Of a DNA stretch of 64,000 nucleotides, positions 1 to 64,000 are shown piece after piece (positions within the stretch are counted from its first letter, which is position 1; every line of letters starts with the position of its first letter). This DNA is from Moesziomyces globuligerus (Eukaryota; Basidiomycota; Ustilaginomycetes; Ustilaginales; Ustilaginaceae), in contig JARVLF010000007.1 of the NCBI GenBank assembly GCA_030849465.1, positions 430,611 through 494,610 on the forward strand. The letters run 5' to 3'. The notes under the pieces are model-generated. The model did no database searches. It was not told where the DNA came from and saw nothing but the letters and a program-made list of their open reading frames with translations. Made by a program: the position numbers and the translations under genes.

Positions 1-289
1 GCTGCTCTCCGCCAACTCCTCTGTCAAATTCGACTCCGAAAGTCCAAATTATGCAAAATACGCGTGTTTTGGCTGCCTGCTGGATCTCGTCGCGTAGCCA
101 CCCCAACGATCCGCACTCCCTCCATTTGTACTCCATCCATCCGCAGCAGATGATGAATAATATGGATCCGGCAAAGCTTTGCATGCACTCTGAAAGAATT
201 ACTGAGACTAAGAACCATGAACTAGCTGATCATACTTCGCCGTCACCCGGCTCAAAGCGCTGATATACGGCCCAGATAGCGCCGAGACT

Positions 290-430
290 CTTAATGAAGA
301 GGTTTGTGGGGCAGCGTTCCACACAAATACGTGTCCGTACACATAATTTATGTATGTGGAGGCGGACGTGGCCTCTGCGGGCCTCAGGTTTTCAATTCAG
401 GAGGCGCGTCAATTTCTTGTTTTTCGCATT
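290..430 (+). repeat. Repeat copy A with tRNA-like A/B box resemblance
   Basis: This stretch (TTAATGAAGAGG, TGTGGGGCAGCG, then a TCAATTCAGGAGGCGCGTC block) matches 2525-2650 at spaced positions, and its end matches 735-770 more weakly. In the 2525 copy the TGGAGCAGCGG and CTCGAATCC strings resemble polymerase III A and B boxes about 75 bp apart. No cloverleaf or T-stem can be folded, so it is not called a tRNA gene. Confidence 0.35.
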
Positions 431-2164
431 TTGGCACCTTTATCTGCCACCCAGGGTGGCTGATAAGCCATCGCGCGTACCAGCCACCCGGGTGGCTGGT
501 CAATATGAATTGCCACCTTGCCTTTTGTTCGGATATGAGTGGCTTGGAAAACGTCACAACCCTCTTTTCGCGATATGAGTGTGATTGTCCAACTTGTAAT
601 TGTAGTGTTTGTCTGTTTGAGCTTCGAATCTTGATGCTTGTTACGGGAGGGTCTGTGGAGGAGACAGAGCCATGAATATGATTACATTCTGATCTCGTGC
701 GCGTCTTCAGGTCGAGGCCCATCTCTCTCCAGCGCACAGGTTCAATTCTGGAGGGACATTTCAAGCTGGAGTGTCACGACAAATGCGACGCCGTCCAAGC
801 CGCTACGCAAGCTACTCATGTGGGAAAAAGTCTGAGTCGAAAGGTACAATTGCTAAGCCACCCCGGATGGCTTAGATGAGTGGCTTCTCGGTGGGCCACC
901 TTGGGTGGCTTCGGGAATGGCTTTGACGCGAAGCCACCCCATCCATCCGCAGCGCGCTAGGTCACCCACGTTCCATCTCGTTCATCCGCAGGCGCAGCGC
1001 AAACATGCAGGTGTATGATGTAAATTTTAGTCATGTATCCTGGATAGCTTTCATGTTTGCATGCGCTGTTTAAAAACCGCCCAAAATAATTATTTGCTTC
1101 GCAAAAAGTTTGACTCGCAAAAAACCGGCTCGAGCCAACTCAGATTGCTGAACATTGCCCCGAATATCGGACCAATGAATGTCAAATTGCTACGAGACAT
1201 GATTTTGAAGGCGAAGTGAGAAGCAATCCAGGGAGGCTGATGGGTGGCTGGTGGATCGTCGTCTTGCCACTTTTTAGGATATGATTATGAGCCATCCACC
1301 GAAAGAACGTCGCGCAAGCCAGCCAGGGTGGCTTGCGGGCTGCCTGATAGACGTATCGACGGACCTTGAGACTTTTCCCAATATGAATTAATCAGATTCA
1401 TCATTACATGGCTTATGAATGTCACCCAAATCAAAATGGAATAAATCGAATTTGTGCACATCCTTCTTTTCCTGCTATCGTTAATTGATCGTTATGACTT
1501 TAGGGTTTTGAACGTGAAATCATGTGATTGGGCTTCGATAAGCTTCGAAAAGGTGCTTCGACATGGATTGCGAAGCAGGAAAACGTTCATATCCTAACAA
1601 GTGGCGGGGTGGCTGATCAATCGCCACCCCGTCGCGTTTTACGATATGACTACGGGTGGCTTGACCTCCAAGCCACTCGCAAGCCACTCACGCACACTCG
1701 AGTGGCCTGGAAAATCAAGCCACTACGGGTGGCTTGGGTGGTGGCTTAGGTGGTGGCTTCGGCAACGTTACACCACCATCCCAATCCATTCCGGCCGCAC
1801 CCGCACCCGCATCTGACCGCACCCGGATCGCTCGCATCCGGGGGCGCGCATCATAGCATCAGGTACCGTTGAATTACAGTCTTCGTACACGAGAGGTCGT
1901 CGTACACGAGAGAAGACATGAGAGTGTGGGGGCAGGAGCGTGCTGGCGGCGGCGGCGGAGATCCATGCGCAGGACGACGACGTCGGTGTTGTGAACGCTG
2001 CGATACCAACCATATGCGGCAATTCAATCTTTCTTCAGGATCATCGTGGATTTAGATCATGAATTGTAAGTCACATCCTGAAGAACGGCGAGCTGGCAAG
2101 GAGCAGCCACCCGTCAGCCACCCGGGGGGGCTGATGGGTGGCTGATGAATGCTAGTCACCTGGA

Positions 2165-2830
2165 GGGGGGTGGATGCCGGGTGGCTGCTCTCCGCCACTT
2201 CCTCTGCCAAATTCGACCCCGCACGTCCATAATTATGCAACATACACGTGTTTTCATGTTTGGCTGCCTGATCGCTTAGGCACCCCCTCCATGCGCAGCT
2301 CCTCCACCCGCGCCTCCTCCATCCGCTCCCTCCATCCGCGTTCCATCCGTCTGCAGCGCATAGTGAATAAGCATGATTTATCGGGGAGCTTTGCATGCGT
2401 TGTCTAGCAGATCACTGAGATTCATCTTCCAGATAATCATACTTTGCCAAGAACCGGCTCGAAGCGCTGAAATATGCCCAAATAGCGCTAAGATGATATC
2501 AGGTAGCCTCGCATTGCATACCTGTTAATGAAGAGGCTTGTGGAGCAGCGGAAACATGTATGGCGCGTGCGGGCACGCGTTTGTGTGAAGGCGGAGCTCC
2601 GCAGGCCTCGTGCTCGAATCCAGGAGGCACGTCGATTATTTTCGAATTTTGGGAACGGGGGGTTTGCCAGATGGGTGGCTGGTGGATCGCCACCTCGCCC
2701 TTTTTCAGGATATGAGGGGCTATGCGATAAGATGAGGAACCCAGCAGGCAAACATGACATGGGTATTTTGCATGATTCAGACGTGCAGGGTTTTGGAATA
2801 TGCAGAGGAGGTGGCGGAGAGCAGCCACCC
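2165..2830. repeat. Imperfect inverted repeat pair flanking ~500 bp
   Basis: The left arm (about 2178-2242) reads GGGTGGCTGCTCTCCGCCA, then a CCTCTGCCAAATTCGA-like stretch and an ATTATGCAA end. The right arm (about 2765-2832) is its diverged reverse complement, from TTGCATGATTC through GCAGAGGAGGTGGCGG to AGCAGCCACCC. The start of the window (1-65) is a third copy in the same orientation as the left arm. The arms could be ends of a decayed DNA transposon or inverted copies of one repeat; no terminal duplication was identified. Confidence 0.55.
2525..2650 (+). repeat. Repeat copy B with A/B box-like strings
   Basis: This is a second copy of the repeat at 290-430: TTAATGAAGAGGCTTGTGG, AGCAGCGG, then GTGCTCGAATCCAGGAGG and CACGTCGATT. 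It holds the best polymerase III box-like strings, TGGAGCAGCGG near 2539 and CTCGAATCC near 2613. The T-stem pairing expected of a functional tRNA is absent. It may be a tRNA-derived SINE or a chance resemblance. Confidence 0.35.
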
Positions 2831-3200
2831 AGCTGCCATCCTGAGGGGGTGGCTCCTCGTGATCAGCCACCCAACAGCCACCCACGCGCGGAACATGGTT
2901 GGGTGGCTGGATGGCTGCTCAATCGCCACCTCGCCGCTTTTCAGGATTTGCATATTATGTGCGTTTTCATGTTACGAAAAAAAAAAGCGATCCGTCGTGC
3001 ATACTCAACAAGTTCATGCGCCGCCGGCCACTTATTACTCAATCACGATTGACCCATATCCGGCAAACTCATATTTTAGTAAAAGTCGCCGGGTACGTTT
3101 GCTAAGCCACCCTCAAGCCGCCCGGGGTGACTTCCCCCCAGACATTTAGACGTACGTCGAAGCCAGCCAGACGCAATCTGGTGGCTTCCACCACGCACAA

Positions 3201-5178
3201 CATGAATCGGTGGCTTCTCTGGTCATGAGTGGCTCGGACGATTCTACAACCTCTTTTTGTTGCAATACGCATGAAGCCCCGTAACGCCTAGAGTGTGCGC
3301 AAGTGTCTTCTGGTCCACAAGGCATAGAGTCACGCGCACAGCCGTGATTGTTATGCATTTGCCAAGTGTAAGTTGGTTTTGAACGTGCCTGCTGTTGTGC
3401 CCGAGGGAGGAGCAACACCCATCGTGCATCTTGATGGGCGGACGAGAGATTGGATGCCAACAACGCCATTTCAACATCGTTCAAGCCGCCCTTTTCCGCT
3501 CCTTCTACCATCAATCATCCATGCAGCATTTTCCTTAGGACAAGTGTCAGCGGGGTTGCACGCCCAAGATTGGAGTTCTCTTGAGTGAGCGTTGGTCCAA
3601 CAGATCTTTGTGAGGTTGGGATCAGTGTTTGCTTGTCCAACAGATGCTTGGGGCTGGAACGCCTGTGAACACTCTGGTTCAGAGAGGTAGCATGGCCCCA
3701 GCCCAAACAGAAGAGGAAGGGATGCATCATCAACTGCCTGATGTCCACTCAAGTGTTTGGGTAGTGCCTTTGCCCCAGCTGTACAGAAGGTGGGGCTATG
3801 GTGGCATGTACCAGAGCGTTGCAATGGGGAGATGCTGCCTTATTTGTTCAAGGTGCTCAGGTGTTGATCAAGGTGTTGATGTTTGTCCAGCTGTTAGCGC
3901 TGCGCCTCCGCCCTACTGCAGGGGCCAACGTAACATCTCCATAGCCCTACAGTGCGTCCTGACCCACGCACCCAGCCCACAGCCCCACAGGGCCAACAGG
4001 AGGGTCAGCGTAGCACCCACAGCGCGCAAGGTGGGCTGGCGCCCACGCACCTGCTGACCTTGGTGCCAACACGACCCACAGTACATTTCTTCCAAAGCAA
4101 CACTTGCCTGCGGCAACGTCTGTAGGCCAACCCCCCCCAGCCCTCCCCCATCCCCGCTGCGGGGCCACAGACGCAATTTCTGCCCCTGCAGAGGTTGCCT
4201 TGGGACCTCTGCTGCTGGCACTACTTGGTTTGCTCCATAGCAGCTCAGTTGACCTGCGCCCTACCAACATGTTCTGTAGGCAGCACCTACCTGTGCCTGC
4301 CTGCCCCTACGGTCGAAGCTGCGCCTGCGGTGCTCAGACTTGGCCTTAACGGAACGTCTGTGGGCTGCGTTGGCACCAAGGCCAAAAGGTCTGTGGGCGC
4401 AGCAAGCGCTGCGCGGCTGTGAGGAGTATGCTGATGAACTGGTTGGCCTTGTGGGGCTGTAGGTTGGGTGCGTGGGGCATGGCGCACCGTGGGGGGACCG
4501 TGGCAATGTTACGTCGGCCAGTGCAGTGGAGCGGAGGGCACTGCACTCAAATGCAGGGGTCAGCTGTGCATGGCAACAGGTGCACTCTGGACTTGCCTGC
4601 AGACAATGCTGCAGGCCAAAAGTGTTGCTCTGGAATGATTGTAAATTAGGTTGTGTTTGTACCAAGACCTGGGGGGGGGGGGGGGGGGGGGGGTGTCTGT
4701 GGGTTGTGTGCCTGGCCCAGCTCCTAGCGCCGGTGCAGAGGTTTATCGCGCCGACATTTCTCGCTCCACGGCCCGAAACCACATCCTTTGCACTTTTGCC
4801 CACTTCATGCTCATGACTCCTGACAGAGGTGGCGAAAAAATTGGTCCCCAGCGATCGTATCAGCTTGGCCCCGGTGTCTCTCAAGACGCTGGCATCATTC
4901 CAGCTGCACAGATCAAGCTCCGGGCAAACTTGTCGCCCCAAAACCGCGCTCTCCTTGCCCTCAGCGCCGCAGGCGACAATCTCGCCCGCCGCGCCTCGAA
5001 AACCCGCCGGCGAGTCTCGCCCTCACTTTCCATGCCTGCCTCCGCCAAGGTTGCGCAACCGCCAACGGGTCCCACTCGGACTCGGAGAAATTACGAATGT
5101 CGAAACAAATGTCCATTGGGATCCACACTGTGGCACACTGTGGAGCGAACAAGTCCAGTCTAGGCGTCACGCGTGGCC
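3201..5178. other. Gene-free stretch, degenerate repeats and a 23-G run
   Basis: No credible gene is seen between the module-rich region and the 3' end of the channel gene. From about 3850 to 4700 short phrases recur with variation, for example GCCAACGTAACATCTCCA-like, GGCCAACAGGAGGGTCAGCG-like and CTGCAGGCCAAAAG-like strings, as in a decayed tandem repeat. A run of 23 G lies at 4671-4693. From 4740 onward the sequence is non-repetitive and may hold the 3' UTR of the minus-strand channel gene. Confidence 0.5.
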
Positions 5179-21086: not shown

Positions 21087-23138
21087 CCCTGTTGCTCCGC
21101 AATGGCTACCCTTGGATCAGGACGTCTTGTGGGTCTGTGCAGATTCGTCGGGTTGAGGGCGAGAGATGTGCACGAGTTTTTGTACCGATCTTGTGGGTGC
21201 GGTAGGGGGGACCGACTGGGATCTATCGCGCTGCGGGGGAAAGATCGGGCCCACATGCTGCACGGCCCAAAACGAGGTCTGCTGCAAAAGAGACAAAGGT
21301 TGAGGCTTGGCGTGCGCACTTGACCTGCGTCGCAGATTCATCGACCTTGATACGATGCGTGGTCGACCTTGCGATGGCATGGCCAAGACTTGGGCCGAGT
21401 TGCATGCTCTGCTCGCATCAACCCATTCCCGTGAACAAGGCTTTAAAGGTACCTGAACAGATCCCCGGGGGGGGGGGGGGTGCAAGTCTAGACCGCTGCG
21501 TCTTTGATCTGCTGATGCCTCATCCTTGAAATGCAGGAGGAAGGGGGGGGGGGGGGGTGTGGTAGCATGCTCTGCTGACAACGTGCTCGTCTTGTGGCTT
21601 GCATCCGGGTGCTTCCGGGGGGGGGCTCTTCTCCAAACCGAGGTCGCACAAGCGCGCACAGTCGAGAGAGTCGAGAATGGCTTGACCCCACCCGTCTGAC
21701 CCACCACCGCAACACCACCACCTGGACCCGGACTTGGGTTGCGAATGGTGACACGGGGGTGGCAAGTCACCAAGGTCTTTTGATGCGCACCGAGTTCTCG
21801 TAGCTCTGTCAACCCTAGTCCGAGGCTAGCAAGGATCGCGTGCCATCGGGGGTGTCTGCAATGCGATTTCTGACAAGAGAACAAGCTGTACCTCCCACCC
21901 GCCTCGATCGGAAGCTGCAAGCAGTCTGTGAGTGTCGGTGGTGTTGCGCGGGTGATAGATGCTTGGTCGATTTCGGCGGGTCGTTGGAGGACGTTGCCAT
22001 GAGGGCCGCATCTGGCGTCCCTACTGGCGCGCCGAGGCAGAACTTTTCTCCATCCCCCGCCTGGCCTGGAATCGAACCCAACCTTGCCACCGCAACGTCA
22101 ACAGCCCACCGAGTGCAGAACCCTCCAATGCTTGTGCTCAAAGCAGCCGAGTGTAGCGTCACGAGTACTCGAGTCGAGTCGAGTCTCGGTCGACGTTTTG
22201 CGCATGCGCTGCTCGTGCTTACGCGCATGCAGCACGCACCTTCCTACCCTACGACCCTGCTTTCCTGCTTTCCCCCCGTGTTTTTCCATCCGCCACTTGT
22301 CGTTCTACCATCCCGGGCTCGGTGCAAAAGCGTACATCGTGGGCACAGGTAGGCTTGGATTCGGCCTCAACTCGATCCCGCATCCCACCCCAGTGGGGGA
22401 GGGGGGAGAAGGGGGGTGGTGCAGCGCGGGGGGGATCCAGTCTAGACCTGGTCGACGTTGTTCATGCCCATACTCGGCTTGGACATCCGACCTTGCTGAG
22501 CGACTGGAGGAAGTACAGTGTTCCGACTCCTGGCTGAGGACGTCCAAGCTGCGGCGCAGCAAAGAGACAGGCAGATGCTTTGCTCGCGCTCATGAGGTTG
22601 TCAACCGACATACTTTACTGTGCTGTCGACATCGCATCTGCCGGAAATCCTCTCATACTCGTACACCATGATCGTCATCGAATGAGCTCGTACAGGCACT
22701 GCGCAGAAAGCGCTCCAACTCAGTCGCATCTCACCATCATCAATCACGCTCGCAGGATCGTGCTCACCAACATTTCACTCTCTCGACATCCCACGCGATG
22801 GCAACCCACACCCCCCGACGCTTCGCTCCTTTTCGCCCTCACAATCCCTCGTACGACCTTCATCGGCAATCGTAGACTCTTGTCTCATCACACTGCCCAG
22901 CACGCATGTGCCATCACACTGCCCAGCACGCATGTGCCATCACACTGCCCAGCACGCATGTGCAGATCCGCTAAGAGTTCAAGTGTGCACCTCTACAGCC
23001 CCACGCCCATCGTTGACGCTTGCCCAGGCCGGATGCAAGAACAACGCACAGCAAACCACAGCAAACCATAGCGCGAAATATTGGCAAAAGACTTGGGCAT
23101 TGAGGAAAAAAAAACAAGTTGGGCTCAAGAAACAGCCG
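21087..23138. other. 2-kb intergenic region with G runs and a 26-bp triplicate
   Basis: No credible gene is seen between SF3B2 and YVH1. The stretch contains G14 (21467-21480) and G15 (21543-21557) runs, further short G runs near 22390-22430, and three direct 26-bp repeats at 22886-22963. Both flanking genes end here (convergent), so the length is unusual for a 3'-3' gap in this window. The string GGAATCGAACC near 22066 resembles a tRNA T-arm on the minus strand, but no cloverleaf forms. Confidence 0.5.
22886..22963. repeat. Three perfect 26-bp direct repeats
   Basis: The unit beginning CATCACACTGCCCAGCACGC and ending ATGTGC is present three times head to tail, with starts at 22886, 22912 and 22938. 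There are no spacers, so this is a simple tandem repeat and not a CRISPR array. Confidence 0.9.
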
Positions 23139-58070: not shown

Positions 58071-58452
58071 TTACCCCCCCCCCCCCCCGCCCGAGTCGCT
58101 TGTCCGCAAGCGACGGCGGCCCGGCAGCGTTTGCTGTTGGGCGTCGCGACCACAGTTGGTGGCAGCCGGGGGTCGGTCGGCCGCGGCTCGGACGGTCGCG
58201 CCTTGCAGCGGCAGGCGCGTGTCACGCCGTTGATCGCCGCGTGTCACCGCGCTAATCTCCGCAAGCCGCCGGCTTCATGTCGGCGGAGCTGCGCGCACCC
58301 ATTATTGCGCACCGCGCTCCCATCATCTCAACCTTGTTCGCGAGCAAGATACCGCAAGCGCACCAATGAGAGCTTTGTGCGAACGCGCGCGGCGCGCACC
58401 TTCTGCGCACGCTTTGTGCACACCCACCCGTCGCACCCCCCTTGGAAGGGGA

Positions 58453-58458
58453 TATATA
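58453..58458 (+). promoter_or_regulatory. TATA box of the truncated distal gene
   Basis: TATATA in GGGGATATATACAACC lies about 50 bp upstream of the ATG at 58506. Confidence 0.55.
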
Positions 58459-58505
58459 CAACCGCGAGTACGTCCACCCCGGCTCTCGTCTTCCCAACCT
58501 TCACG

Positions 58506-59345
58506 ATGTCGCCTCCCCCCTCCCCTCGTTACCCTTTCGCGTCGGGCCTGTACCCTCCCGCCCGCCCGGCGCGCCCCCAGCACAACGACGACGGCCGCGA
58601 CGGCGATGTTGCAATGGACGACGGTGAGTATTCTTGCGCCGTGGTGTTCCGTCGGCGTTGGTCGGGCTGCGCGACTGACGGTCGGGGCTTTGGTTGGCGG
58701 TGGCAACAGGTACGACGGCGGCAACGCGCCCGGCGGCCTTGCCCGCTCCTTTCTCGTTCCCCGGCGGCATCAACTGCCACATCTTGGGTAAGTCTTGCTG
58801 TCGTGGTGTCTGCCGGAGCGTCGCTAACCCCTGGCCTTGCCTTTTCTCCCAGACTGGGCCGACCCTGCTTGCTTGGCCGACTGGGCGCCCACGCCCGTCG
58901 CGCCCTCGTCGGGCCCCTCGCGCCCGCAACGCGCCGCAGCCGTGCGCGCCGCGCCCTACCAGCGGGACGCGCCACTGCCCGAGGATGTGCAGCCGCGCGT
59001 CCGTCTGCCTGCGTCGCGGGGCGCTTCCTCCTCTGCGTCGGCTGGCGCTCGGTCCCCTGCGTCGGCTGGCGCTCGTTTGCCCGCGTCGGCTGGCGCGCGC
59101 CCTTCTCCGGTGCCCGTCACTGTGGTTGGTAAGTCGGTCGGGACTTGTTTTGTTCGGTCGGGCCTTTACTGACCTCGCTGTGCCTGTTTTTTTTTTCTTT
59201 GCTAGACGATGATGACAACGAGGCCGATGGCGACGTCGCAATGGCGCCGGTGCCGTCGGCCAGCGCTCCGCCCGCCGCCGCTCTGCCCGCCGCCCAACCC
59301 AAGGTCCCTCCCGCCGCTGCGCCCGCCGTTCCCGCTGCGTCGGCC
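58506..59345 (+). pseudogene. Four-exon low-complexity gene truncated by interstitial telomere repeats
   Basis: Four exons (58506-58623, 58710-58787, 58853-59128, 59206 to about 59345) join in one frame. All three introns are phase 1, with borders GTGAGT...CAG, GTAAGT...CAG and GTAAGT...TAG and lengths of 65-86 bp. The product starts MSPPPSPRYPFASGLYPP and is rich in Ala, Pro, Arg and Ser; it contains three ASAGAR repeats (exon 3) and the phrase DGDVAM twice (end of exon 1, start of exon 4). No domain is recognised. Exon 4 runs without a stop straight into TTAGGG repeats at 59346, after which the frame continues into unrelated sequence to 59465. The original 3' end is therefore missing. A TATA box precedes the start, so it may still be transcribed. 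Confidence 0.65.
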
Positions 59346-59364
59346 CTAGGGTTAGGGTTAGGGT
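59346..59364 (+). repeat. Interstitial telomeric repeat (about three TTAGGG units)
   Basis: The string CTAGGGTTAGGGTTAGGGTT follows GTCGGC directly and is followed by CCAGATCC. It has the same orientation as the terminal telomere, as expected of an old right-hand chromosome end later buried. Confidence 0.9.
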
Positions 59365-59484
59365 TCCAGATCCTTTTGACGGTGGGTTTCCAACTTTTGG
59401 ACGCGCTTGACATCCAGCGGTCCCTGGTCTGCCCTCATGGAAGACGGTCCAATTCAAAAATCTGACGCGTTGAATTTCACAGGA

Positions 59485-59670
59485 AGACAGTCCGCTTCAA
59501 AAATCAAGACGGTCTGCTTCAAAAATCAAGACGGTCCACTTCAGAAATAAAGACGGTCTGCTTCAAAAATGGAGACGGTCCACTACAGTCAGAGAGACAG
59601 TCCGCTACAGTCAGAGAGACGGTCAGCTACAGTCAGAGAGACGGTCAGCTACAAAAGGGAGACCATCAAG
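59485..59670 (+). repeat. 22-bp tandem array
   Basis: Eight consecutive units with the core AGACGGTCNGCT start exactly 22 bp apart at 59485, 59507, 59529, 59551, 59573, 59595, 59617 and 59639, with a ninth degenerate start near 59660 and an isolated copy at 59442. The units grade from a CAAAAATCA half to a CAGTCAGAG half. They lie just before the zinc-finger ORF and may be its promoter or 5' UTR repeats. Confidence 0.85.
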
Positions 59671-59736
59671 GGCAAGTAGCAGAGAAGTGCACCCGTCAAT
59701 GCCCATCACATCACCCACTCCCCTCCGCCAGCCAAT

Positions 59737-60246
59737 ATGTCACGGACAACCTGCCCTGTTTGCGGTCTCTCCTATGCGGCAACAAACATCACCAATCATT
59801 TGCGCAAGGCGCACAGCGGTGCACACGTCAGTCAGGAGGCTGCTGCTGCTGTTGGGCTAGTTGCATGCCAGTGCGGCCAGGTAGTGGTGAATGCTGCGGC
59901 ACTGCGCAAGCACCAGGGCATCCGTTAGTGCCGGGGTGTACGGCCCCAGCCCACAGCAGCAGCCGCTGCAGCAGCAGAAAATTTTGCTCCAGCACAGTCA
60001 GAATCAGCGCCGGCAGAGCAGACCGCAGCAGCAGCCATTGTGGCAGCTGCATCAGCGCTGGCGCAGGCTCTGGCCCCGCTGCCGCCTCCAAGTGCAAGCC
60101 CAGCACCCGTGTGTTACAGGCCTGGATCAGACCCTGATCGACGCAGGCACGTGTGGAGGGCGCAGGCGAAAATCCGTAGCAGGGGCTACGAGCGCGCCAA
60201 GTCGCGGTCCGGCGAGTGGAGGCCACTCGACGAATGCCGTCAATAA
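59737..60246 (+). pseudogene. Zinc-finger ORF fragment, probable 5' part of a non-LTR retroelement
   Basis: The frame starts MSRTTCPVCGLSYAATNITN; CPVC followed by a His pair (H-X4-H) makes a C2H2 finger, and a second Cys/His cluster (CQCG, then KHQGIR) follows. A TAG codon interrupts at 59926-59928, yet the same frame continues open for another 105 codons of Ala/Gln/Pro-rich sequence to a TAA near 60246. This suggests a single nonsense change in a longer protein. Such N-terminal fingers are typical of R2/CRE-type retroelements with a restriction-like endonuclease, but no reverse transcriptase belonging to it remains; the gypsy element begins within or just after it. A cellular zinc-finger origin is possible. 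Confidence 0.5.
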
Positions 60247-61089
60247 TTCGCCGAGTGAGGCCCACTCGACGGACGGCCTGCGGCGACCCCGGAAAACAAC
60301 GAGCGGGTCATACGATGGACGTACCCGGCTCGGAGACGAAGGGGAGGAGGAGAGGGGTGCTTGTTGGCCCAGGGGGCAACGAGCGTAACGTGCAAAGGGG
60401 AGTCATGCACGAGAGGAGGCCTGAGCCCGAGGGGGTGGGCGAAACCTCCTGGCATCAATGAGATGCTAGCAGGGGCCGTTCGAGACGGCACCTTGCCACA
60501 CGCTGGCCCTCCTGGTGAGGGCAAGTACTTATAGCTTCGACTCATCGAGTGCGATGGGGCTGCGCCCCATCCACTCTACTTTACTTTACATCACTCAGTC
60601 GTTATCATTCGTCAGTATCACTGTCTTTCAGTCCATTCGTCTCACAGTAGCAATCGCAGGGCGTTGCTACTACTTGCGTGTGTGTTGTATCACCGCTTCA
60701 GACGTCGTCGACACCTTCATCAACGCTACGGCACCTACACCGTAGGCAGTACCTCCACTGCGGCCCTGGAACCTCAACCAGTGCCTCGACAACTGTCTGA
60801 GCATTACGAGCACTCGTGCAAAGACGGAAGTCCTTCCCACGACGCCCAGAGGCGTCCGCAGCAATCGAGTCGTGCCGCGCTACCTCTGAACGGGGTGCTC
60901 ACAGTGGTCAGCCGATATCCGTTGAGTCGCGTCGACTCGCCGAATAACTCAGGCGATTCGTCGAGTCCACGCCACTCGTCGAACGAGTCAAATAATTCGC
61001 CGAGTCCACGCCACTCGCCGAATAAGGATTTCGGGCACGCGACCCCTGACATTAGAGTGGATCGTTCAAGCAGCTCCCCACGACTCACC
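60175..61089 (+). mobile_element. LTR-like leader of the Ty3/gypsy element
   Basis: The stretch upstream of gag begins around the palindrome CGTAGCAGGGGCTACG (about 60173-60188) and includes repeated CGAGTGGAGGCCACTCGACG-type strings, a TATA-like TACTTATAGC near 60525 and a T/C-rich segment near 60590-60640. It is probably the 5' LTR plus untranslated leader. No second LTR exists in the window because the element is cut, so the LTR borders and the primer-binding site could not be fixed. Similar CGCCGAGTCGTGCC-like strings recur inside pol near 63015-63130. Confidence 0.5.
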
Positions 61090-62517
61090 ATGGCGGACGA
61101 GACCCTCGTCAAGAAGCTGGATGAGCTCATCAGCCTGGTCAAAGCCCAGCTCGAGCTCACCAACCGGGCCAATCAAGAGGCCATGACGGCCCGAGCCCGC
61201 CAGCACCTTGCCGAGCGTCTCTCGCAGGTTCCCGAGGAGCAGGCCGACGAATCCTCGTTCGCCGACCCACCCACCCCTACGCCTGCGGCTCGTCCTCGCC
61301 GATCGGTGTCCTTTGCTGACGATGGCGAACGCACCTACACCGACCGCGAGACGTACTCGACTCCGACTGGCAGTCGCTACACGAAGCCAAGGACGGAGGC
61401 CGCCTCAGGCAAGGAGGGGTACGATACCATCTCGCTCGAGGATCTTCCGCATAGCCAGCAGAAGTCCCTCTCGACGCCCTTCCCCAAGTTCAACCCCCGT
61501 GACGTCGAACTCTTCGTGATCGAGGCCGAGGCCTGGTTCAAATTCAACCGAGTCTACGACCACGAGACGATGATCAACTACACGGGCACCCAGCTTGACG
61601 GCAGCGCTCGCGAGTGGTGGACCTCCAAGCTCCGAGTCGACCGGCCACGCCAAGGCAAGTTGTTCCATGACTGGCACTTCTTCACGAAGCGCCTCTCAGA
61701 GCAGTACAACCCGCGCAACGTCAGGATGGAGGCCTACAACAAGCTGTTGGCCCTTCGTCTCACTAGCGACACCCCGGGCGCGGCCACCCGCCACGTCGAG
61801 CGGTTCCGCGATCTCGAGAGCCAGGTCAACCTCGAAGACACCGAGCTGCTCATCGACCTGTTCCGAGGCAGCCTGACTCGCAGTCTGCAGGAGAAGTTCG
61901 AGCGCAACCCGCCCAGCGATCGCTGGGGGTGGTATCGCGAGGTCGAAGAGATCGACAGGCAGAGGATGTCTCTGCAGCAGGCCTCTTCCAGGCACCCAAG
62001 CCTACCGGCCCCGCGCGGGGGCATAGCAGCAAGCCAGCGCCCCGTAGGGCCCGCCGCGGTCAGCCCAGCCCGCCAGCCTGCCCCTCCGGCGCCTGGCACG
62101 CCGTATCGGCCCGGCAACCGGCCCCTGCCGCCGCACTTGGCGCAGAACCTTAGGCCGCGCGCCCCGGCAGGAGGCACAGGGCCCACGACGTTTGGTAGCA
62201 CGGTTTGCCACCTGTGTCAAGGCACGGGCCATTGGGCACGAGACTGCCCAAGCAGGAAGGCACCGCTAGCAACCCCGAGGCCGGCAGGCCCAAGGGTCGC
62301 AGTGGCACTCGAGGACCCGCAACAAGGCGACCAGCCTCCAGAGGAAGCCGTGGAGGCGGAGCAGGCTGACGAGGGTGAGGACTACGGGTACGACTCGGTC
62401 GATCAAGAGCCCCTGGACCTCACCCAGTTCGAAAGCCCTGCTGCGGCCGCCAACCACGCAGCTCCTCGAGACGACAACGATGACGCCCGGGAAAACTGCT
62501 ATGGGGCGATGCACTAA
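61090..62517 (+). CDS. Ty3/gypsy gag polyprotein
   Basis: A 475-residue gag is read from [20 protein letters not shown]. The capsid-like core spans about 115-300 ([60 protein letters not shown]). The nucleocapsid zinc knuckle [14 protein letters not shown] (C-X2-C-X4-H-X4-C) lies near 375-390. The tail is acidic. The frame is also open upstream to 60664, but that part overlaps the presumed LTR. The stop TAA shares its last base with the pol ATG (TAATG). The frame is intact, which points to a fairly recent insertion. Confidence 0.88.
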
Positions 62518-63836
62518 TGGCATGCATGGCCCTACATCCCTGGACGCCATCCATCTGTAAATATCAAGATTGCGCTCTTTGTTTCTCAGCCAGCGACGGC
62601 AAGGCGGTGCTCGAGTTGACCGGAACGGTCCAAGGCCACCCGGCTCGCATCCTCGCCGACACCGGCGCTGGCCTGTCCATAGTCTCAGGTTCGTTCGCCC
62701 GCAAACACAAAATACCATCAAAAACAGCAAAAACAACAACAATACACGGTGTCACCGGGCACCAGATGACCACGCGGTCCATGGCGATGACCCGGGTAGC
62801 AATTGGGGGCCACGACCTCGGCCCGGTGCCCGCGTGGGTAGTGGACGTGGCCGACTACGACTTCATCCTGGGATATCGGGCCCTACGCCGGCTCAAACCA
62901 ACTATCCATTGGGATACTGGGCAACTCGAGTTCGAGCTGCTAGGGCCGATGCAGGCCTATAACGCGTCCCAGGATGACGGGTCGCTACTACCAAGAGCCG
63001 TCAAGGAAGGCGCTCGGCGAATTTCGGTGGTGTCCGCCGAGTCGTGCCCACTCGCCGAACCTCCACCTTCGTCCGCCGAGACGCGCCGACTCGGCGAATT
63101 ACCGCCCCTGTCCGTCGAGTCGATCCCACCCGCCGAATGTCAAACTTCGGCAAAGCTCCACGGCCACGAGTTTGTATCCGCCAAACGCTTGATGCAAGCA
63201 GCCGTCGAAGACGGCCCAATTGGGTTCATGCTTCTAGAGGATCCATGGGATTCCCTCCCGGCGTTCGGTTTCGTGCCCACCGGAGCCGACAAGGGGGTGG
63301 AGATGGAGGTGGAGCCCGACAAGCCGGTGTCGGTCGAAGAGATCCCAGAGCCTTACAGGCATCTGCGAGGCGTCTTCGACGAGGTGGAAGCAGACCGGCT
63401 ACCGCCTCATACGGATCATGACCTCCGCATCGACTTGGTTGAGGGCAGCAAGCCCCCTCAAGGGCCGCTGTACCTCAAGGGGCCCAAGGAGATGGCAGAA
63501 CTTCGCAAGTACTTGGACGAGAATCTCGCCAAGGGATTCATTCGGCCATCAAAGAGCCCGGCGCGGTCACCGGTACTCTTCGTGCCCAAGAAGGACGGTG
63601 GCCTTCGCCTCTGCGTCGACTACAGAGGGCTCAACGAGATTACGATCAAGAACCGCGCGCCGCTGCCGCTCATTGAGGAGCAGCTATTCCTCCTCCGCAG
63701 GGCCAAGATCTACTCGAAGCTGGACCTCAAGGCAGCCTACAACCTGATTCGCATTTCAAGTGGCGATGAATGGAAGACGGCATTCGGGACCCAGCTTGGG
63801 CTGTACGAGTACTTGGTGATGCCGTTCGGCCTGGCA
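62517..63836 (+). CDS. Ty3/gypsy pol (protease-reverse transcriptase), truncated by telomere
   Basis: The pol frame begins at the overlapping TAATG and is read -1 relative to gag. A retropepsin-type protease has its catalytic DTGAG at residues 48-52, followed by the second-half motif [11 protein letters not shown]. The reverse transcriptase begins near residue 285 and shows [30 protein letters not shown] and [14 protein letters not shown]. It ends in LVMPFGLAG, where TTAGGG repeats begin (63836-63839); the YxDD active site, RNase H and integrase are missing. The element is therefore incapable of transposing by itself. A Ser/Pro-rich stretch (residues about 165-205) holds short repeats. The formal frame runs into the telomere as (LG)n with no stop. 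Confidence 0.9.
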
Positions 63837-64000
63837 GGGTTAGGGTTAGGGTTAGGGTTAGGGTTAGGGTTAGGGTTAGGGTTAGGGTTAGGGTTAGGGT
63901 TAGGGTTAGGGTTAGGGTTAGGGTTAGGGTTAGGGTTAGGGTTAGGGTTAGGGTTAGGGTTAGGGTTAGGGTTAGGTTAGGGTTAGGGTTAGGGTTAGGG
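63836..64000 (+). repeat. Right-hand chromosome telomere, (TTAGGG)n
   Basis: About 27 TTAGGG units run to the end of the window, G-rich strand 5' to 3', as expected at a right chromosome end. One unit near 63972 is TTAGG, a single-base deletion that shifts the phase. The junction with the element is at AGGG in GGCAGGG, so a few bases could belong to either side. Confidence 0.97.

Follow-up and report, generated by a model that had tools for sequence, protein, structure and literature searches.

A broken copy of a putative chromosome-end element, predicted to encode a finger protein and a TET/JBP-type dioxygenase, in Moesziomyces globuligerus

The broken gene and the element fragment at the contig end

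The terminal 64 kb of contig C7 of Moesziomyces globuligerus (C7:430611-494610, from a contig of 494610 bases in a genome assembly of 18.5 Mb and 24 contigs) are referred to here as the window. The subject of this report is a repeated element of the chromosome ends of this smut fungus, of which a 5' fragment was located close to the right end of the window beside a gene interrupted by telomere repeats. The features of this region were all on the plus strand. A subtelomeric multicopy gene (58400-59346) had its 3' part cut off by the telomere tract TAGGGTTAGGGTTAGGGTT (59347-59365), which measured 19 nt, was uninterrupted and had its G-rich strand directed towards the contig end. The motif TTAGGGTTAGGG was present in the window at 59352 and in the terminal array at 63837-64000 and nowhere else, and no occurrence was expected according to 100 shuffles. 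The genome search with window positions 58400-59346 gave 11 places for the gene family, namely, the window and 10 further copies; 10 of the 11 were near contig ends, and one was internal (C18:211869). Beyond the position of the cut, the same gene continued in all four relatives that were read, at length on C14, C18 and C22L and for approximately 35 nt on C8, after which other sequence started. Because these relatives keep the same gene past the cut, the copy in the window is truly broken at 59346. An earlier reading made from the letters of this DNA (the sequence-only reading) had described a gene cut by about three TTAGGG units, and the measured tract agreed with this description.

The element fragment (59366-60111, 746 bp) followed the telomere tract directly and began with the fixed 5' end CCAGATCC, which was shared by 68 places in the genome. 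Its 5' leader contained a 22-bp tandem array (59484-59653; repeat scores of 136-160), which was present in other copies of the element too. The 5' end of the first open reading frame (ORF1) was located at 59737-60111, where the domain search and the reading frame indicated a C2H2-like finger and then a linker. The finger frame (59737-59928, 63 amino acids) ended with a TAG at 59926-59928. Both the array and the zinc-finger frame with its TAG had been noticed in the sequence-only reading and were recovered here. The finger residues of the window copy (C6, C9, H21 and H26) were assigned by eye. An inner stop was absent from 41 of the 49 scored ORF1 matches, and the window copy was among the eight with one.

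A Ty3/gypsy-type retrotransposon with long terminal repeats (LTRs) was situated within the element (60112-63836), as judged from LTR pairs and domains, and was itself cut inside its reverse transcriptase. The alignment of the window element to most other copies ended at approximately query position 747, where the LTR starts. The retrotransposon comprised an LTR from 60112, gag (61090-62517), and a protease with the start of the reverse transcriptase (62517-63836). The domains matched were gag, CCHC, aspartyl protease and RVT_1, the last over positions 1-123 of 205 only; the class name Ty3/gypsy was given on the basis of domain order. At other places in the genome, the LTRs of this gypsy element came in pairs with a spacing of approximately 8.2 kb. 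In C21:529457-549832, its LTRs were found at 532772, 541006 and 549242, that is, in steps of approximately 8.2 kb, like a gypsy tandem array near the right end. A terminal telomere array, evident from the sequence, completed the contig (63837-64000). In other parts of the window, three perfect copies of a 26-bp tandem repeat were present at 22886-22963, and the G+C content was 0.51-0.54 over positions 1-4000 versus 0.60-0.69 across the remaining window.

Distribution and boundaries of the copies

The 5' end of the element was found at 68 places (56 exact) in a 19-nt genome search that allowed up to two mismatches, and the reversed-pattern control gave 0. This recurrence is far beyond chance. 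One of the places, C1:467925, had a match of approximately 20 nt only, which may represent either chance or a very small fragment. None of the 68 places was more than 16,870 bases from a contig end, and all pointed outward. They occupied 32 of the 48 contig ends; the left end of C21 was the 33rd according to the ORF1 matches. Each of the 49 ORF1 matches that were scored, from 71 candidates, was near a contig end. The 826-bp query from the window (59365-60190) gave at least 49 places in the genome, with 40 of 93 candidates scored. The sequence-only reading had expected copies of this interval to be flanked by TTAGGG and not to lie mainly away from telomere repeats. The results were in line with this expectation, since all 68 places were subtelomeric and at least GGGTT stood directly before the element at 58 of them, where the final TT lies in the search pattern and only the preceding bases count as evidence.

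Directly after ...TTAGGGTT, the first base of the element was the same throughout, apart from slight differences at the edge in a few copies. The sequences on the 5' side were of several kinds, among them host DNA, LTRs of gypsy elements, further subtelomeric repeats and the element's own truncated copies; 57 flanks were distinct by exact 20-mer, and 51 remained after similar flanks were grouped. The telomere tract that separates the flank from the element ranged from 0 to 65 nt over all 68 places, with a median of 9 nt (30 tracts under 8 nt and 25 of at least 14 nt). Among the 19 contig ends examined, 12 had a terminal array of 94-210 nt, one (the left end of C14) had 18 nt, and six had none. 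The lengths of the seeds, as these tracts are called here, did not overlap with the 12 terminal arrays (p ~4e-8), and the p value was about the same when the 18-nt end, omitted at first, was included; the six telomere-less ends were omitted from these tests. Insertion into full-length working telomeres was rejected because the seeds are too short. Contig C5 had exactly 600000 bases, a right end without telomere, and a reverse-transcriptase match in a frame given as 19480 amino acids open; these oddities perhaps reflect masked or cut sequence.

The 3' ends varied. For the copies whose 3' side was fetched, 25 ends were listed at 24 positions across the element; alignment stops inside the 22-bp or the 88-bp repeats do not represent ends and were omitted, and one of the two rows of copy L029 (224 and 274) was kept. 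The 24 positions led into a telomere repeat or new element (15), an LTR (5), another subtelomeric repeat family (2) or other sequence (2), and the last class includes position 1523, where a G run was followed by TTAGGG. The three longest copies (L031, L032 and L033) stopped at three different 3' points. A second subtelomeric repeat family, with GGGTTACAAGGTGCGCCCC and GGGTTCCAAGGGGGTCCC variants, was observed at L032:5151-6440 (minus strand, outward) and L033:5740-9900. This family likewise started right after GGGTT and had variable 3' ends.

Coding capacity of the long copies

The longest copies that were read, L031 (C1), L032 (C17) and L033 (C12), were 5.1-5.4 kb in length and had two long frames each. 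Their order was ORF1 (936-938 amino acids), a second open reading frame (ORF2; 326 amino acids from ATG), imperfect repeats of 0.4-0.8 kb, and TTAGGG. The full-length ORF1 had 937 amino acids in L031:434-3244. The domain search gave only weak C2H2-finger matches for ORF1, under the curated cut-offs. No reverse transcriptase, endonuclease, transposase, helicase or Rep family of Pfam was matched by ORF1 and its relatives. A restriction-like endonuclease in particular gave no Pfam match in ORF1, whose fold model is unreliable (predicted local distance difference test, pLDDT, of 46), and no known catalytic domain was obtained for ORF1 from NCBIfam, a prokaryote library. A Helitron-like element was rejected on the ground that ORF1 had no helicase or Rep match. 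Moreover, the Rfam search of L031 gave 0 matches, and no ORF1 relatives were found in viral contigs. Among 12 ORF1 relatives, a single weak match to OrsD was obtained (E 0.53); the OrsD genome search had no match anywhere and was hence uninformative.

The ORF1 profile search of 5.8 billion proteins gave 14 relatives among 7996 scored candidates, and the ORF1 protein searches scored only 7993 and 7996 candidates, those with the most shared words. The named relatives were all from smuts (Ustilago trichophora, Ustilago sp. UG-2017a, Ustilago sp. UG-2017b and Kalmanozyma brasiliensis). Within the reach of these searches, ORF1 appears to be an orphan family of smut fungi. The longest listed contig had the same length, 4724 bases, for P0016 and P0005, and this agreement only hints that ORF1 and ORF2 may be adjacent in another species.

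No reverse transcriptase was detected in either long frame of L031, L032 and L033, which contained ORF1 and ORF2 in its place, and by position none of the 37 listed genomic reverse-transcriptase matches was inside the ORF1/ORF2 part of an element. The matches at C7:494192 and C11:478079 belonged to gypsy elements that had inserted into a fragment of the element or next to one. In target-primed reverse transcription, the 3' end of a retrotransposon is retained and the 5' end is lost. The polarity of loss in the present element was the opposite and on the chromosome-end side, and it therefore matches terminal erosion followed by telomere healing. The sequence-only reading had proposed a telomere-targeted retroelement of the R2/CRE type. 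The repeated and telomere-associated character of the element beside a broken end was upheld; its nature as a retroelement was not, because a reverse transcriptase was missing from the three longest copies read and the truncation polarity was reversed. The assignment to R2/CRE was likewise abandoned since ORF1 had no match to a reverse-transcriptase or endonuclease family, and an autonomous telomeric retroelement was ruled out by the same lack of reverse transcriptase and the wrong truncation polarity. A CRE/MoTeR-type telomeric non-LTR retrotransposon, or a non-autonomous copy mobilized by such an element, would agree with the adjoining TTAGGG, the C2H2-like finger at the N-terminus of ORF1, and the tandem arrays parted by telomere tracts, which are described for MoTeRs in the cited part of PMC8381367. 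Nevertheless, the constant 5' end and the varying 3' ends argue against both forms, and this explanation is highly improbable. MoTeR, FoTeR and CRE elements resemble the present element in their position at chromosome ends against TTAGGG and in their common truncated copies; according to the portion of PMC12857005 drawn upon, they differ in encoding a reverse transcriptase, whereas none was found in this element and its truncations were 3'-sided.

For ORF2, no Pfam family was matched, and the domain searches gave no helicase match. The residues H236, D238, H282 and R294 were invariant in all nine aligned sequences, corresponding to an HxD...H metal-site pattern plus an arginine; R294 is taken, from its position, to be the 2-oxoglutarate-binding arginine. 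The best match of the ORF2 profile in the PDB was NgTET1 (E 0.12, weak alone), with the HxD...H stretch aligned, and CcTET, NgTET1 and TET2 ranked above other folds for the structure model of ORF2. Because of the invariant HxD...H, the NgTET1 profile match and the TET-like model, ORF2 is predicted to be a TET/JBP-family dioxygenase by fold. ORF2 may be catalytically active and might act against methylation-based silencing. Two C5-methyltransferase-like loci were present in the genome.

The reading frames seemed to be maintained. The pooled ratio of nonsynonymous to synonymous changes (pN/pS) of ORF1 was 0.46 over 18 copies, and comparison of the three full-length copies with one another gave 0.33-0.45. 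In three pairs of ORF2, there were 2, 4 and 4 synonymous changes versus 1, 1 and 0 other changes. Furthermore, 14 of the 15 full-length ORF1 matches were free of inner stops. These results point to constraint on both ORF1 and ORF2, with the reservation that the pairs depend on one another and that many of the copies arose recently.

Four distant TET-like genes (27-41% identity) were located inside chromosomes. Two of these four were inspected, L077 (C19:661230-661850) and L078 (C16:626561-627310), which were 41% and 30% identical to ORF2, respectively, and ORF1 was beside neither. The occurrence of such internal genes is compatible with ORF1 and ORF2 being an ordinary host subtelomeric gene pair, passively amplified with the ends and having no identity as an element, and the spread of another gene family across these ends is also in its favor. 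However, ORF1 was away from contig ends in none of the 49 scored matches, and the same 5' edge was repeated at the copies read. A host gene pair is thus quite unlikely.

End capture and comparison with known systems

The interval in the window is probably a broken copy of a Y'-like chromosome-end element that spreads by erosion, healing and end capture through a TTAGGG seed. The element appears to be a block of approximately 5 kb with telomere repeats at its bounds, coding for the orphan finger protein ORF1 and the predicted TET/JBP dioxygenase ORF2. The locations, the orientation, the fixed 5' edge, the short seeds, the variable 3' ends, one end swap and the two frames were established by sequence, together with the TET fold of the ORF2 model. 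In the proposed mechanism, a chromosome end would erode or break and gain a few nucleotides of TTAGGG. This short seed would recombine with the interstitial TTAGGG that borders the element on its 5' side on another end, and the terminal part of the donor would be copied outward onto the damaged end. The 5' edge would be fixed because the seed recombines at the TTAGGG of the element edge and copying proceeds outward. The captured end may later be eroded distally, on the 3' side, and healed again, so that the cycle recurs. The copying was presumably achieved by break-induced replication and not by an activity encoded in the element. For the window, the host gene would have been broken and healed, the element captured, the gypsy element inserted into ORF1, and a break in the gypsy element healed by telomere addition.

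A pair of copies on C2 and C19 was identical at 99.7% over 705 bp as far as a common truncation point and a common TTAGGGTT, beyond which each chromosome had different sequence. As judged from the alignment, this pair shows an exchange of ends at an 8-nt seed present in both. Tandem arrays were also present: C15 had seven units of 1556 bp with 0 differences among them, and C16 had units of 1995 bp, with 1 and 3 differences between neighbors. These arrays look like the loop-back arrays of telomerase-negative Pyricularia in the cited part of PMC8381367.

Several points weigh against this interpretation. The 5' flanks were partly non-independent, as reflected in the 51 groups. Seven of the 68 junctions were nearly seedless, with a telomere tract of 0-3 nt; four of the seven (three on C10 and one on C17) had one shared flank type with small edge changes. 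The lack of telomere at six of the 19 examined contig ends also counts here, and individual ends may be affected by errors of assembly. The copies read did not define where the element truly stops on its 3' side. As for ORF2, the confidence of the model was medium (pLDDT of 70.4; 39-58 for four other models), and its template modeling scores to TETs were only 0.39-0.50, query-normalized. The conserved frames imply that the proteins serve the element, which suggests that it is perhaps no mere passenger. Finally, the same 5' edge could also result if the element encoded an integrase that acts on TTAGGG ends, recombination being deduced from sequence.

The last point corresponds to a telomere-targeted mobile element that brings its own machinery. 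In that case, ORF1 would be a novel nuclease or integrase with recognition of TTAGGGTT at ends that are short or damaged, it would insert the element with an exact 5' edge, and ORF2 would protect the element from methylation. However, ORF1 had no known catalytic domain, and its model is the unreliable one noted above. Moreover, the seed was far shorter than the terminal telomere, so insertion into a working telomere is unlikely, and a homology mechanism based on TTAGGG accounts for the edge with no enzyme needed. An element driven by its own machinery is accordingly regarded as unlikely. End capture might also be combined with a joint role for both proteins at damaged chromosome ends, in which ORF1 would recognize the short TTAGGG seed or the edge of the element and favor capture, whereas ORF2 would oxidize methylated or telomeric bases and so open a silenced end for recombination; such an element would represent a new telomere-living class. 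This combination is doubtful at present. If true, the element would pay its way by helping to rebuild chromosome ends.

The capture route proposed here would be one already known from Y' elements and from telomere attrition-induced replication (TAIR) in Pyricularia. The element resembles Y' and other telomere-associated sequences (TAS) in its confinement to chromosome ends in one orientation (68 of 68) and in the interstitial telomere repeats at its boundaries and between tandem units. A helicase gene is found in the Y' elements of yeast and in TLH/UTASa, but some TAS lack one. In the present genome, C14:14228 and C16:18663 were less than 20 kb from a contig end among 37 listed DEAD-family matches, from a search that scored 36 of 57 candidates. 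Gene-bearing multicopy blocks adjoining telomere repeats, the UTASa and UTASb of Ustilago maydis and the telomere-linked helicases of Sporisorium scitamineum, are described in the cited sections of PMC10532341 and PMC4466345. The likeness of the present element to Y', TLH and UTAS thus extends to smuts; according to the same sections, those blocks code for RecQ-like helicases or OrsD-type proteins, whereas this element codes for ORF1 and a predicted TET/JBP dioxygenase. In the TAIR of MoTeR and other subterminal repeats of Pyricularia, a worn-down end that keeps a remnant of telomere invades an interstitial telomere motif and copies the distal sequence, and the product is tandem arrays with short TTAGGG tracts between units (PMC8381367, in part). 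The same capture route is proposed for this element, in which such arrays were also observed; as far as that part describes, the Pyricularia copies are often of a non-LTR retrotransposon, whereas no reverse transcriptase was found in this element and its seeds were often shorter than two repeats.

DNA transposons that encode TET/JBP proteins, with known transposases, occur in rusts, mushrooms, and truffles and morels according to the main text of Kojima 2025 (PMC12730594), in which the term "Ustilag" is absent and "telomer" appears in the reference list alone. A repeated or mobile element carrying a TET/JBP dioxygenase gene is a shared trait; the present element differs in its restriction to chromosome ends and in having no recognized transposase (Pfam, ORF1). 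A literature search of limited reach returned no TET-bearing chromosome-end element. The fungal chromosome-end elements in the literature surveyed carry helicases or reverse transcriptases. An element that carries a putative TET/JBP gene with signs of constraint would tie DNA-base oxidation to chromosome ends, and it makes testable the question of whether demethylation aids the survival of the element, or its spread by recombination, at a silenced end. Furthermore, the approximately fifty end-capture junctions would form a natural record, and they suggest how few telomere nucleotides may be enough.
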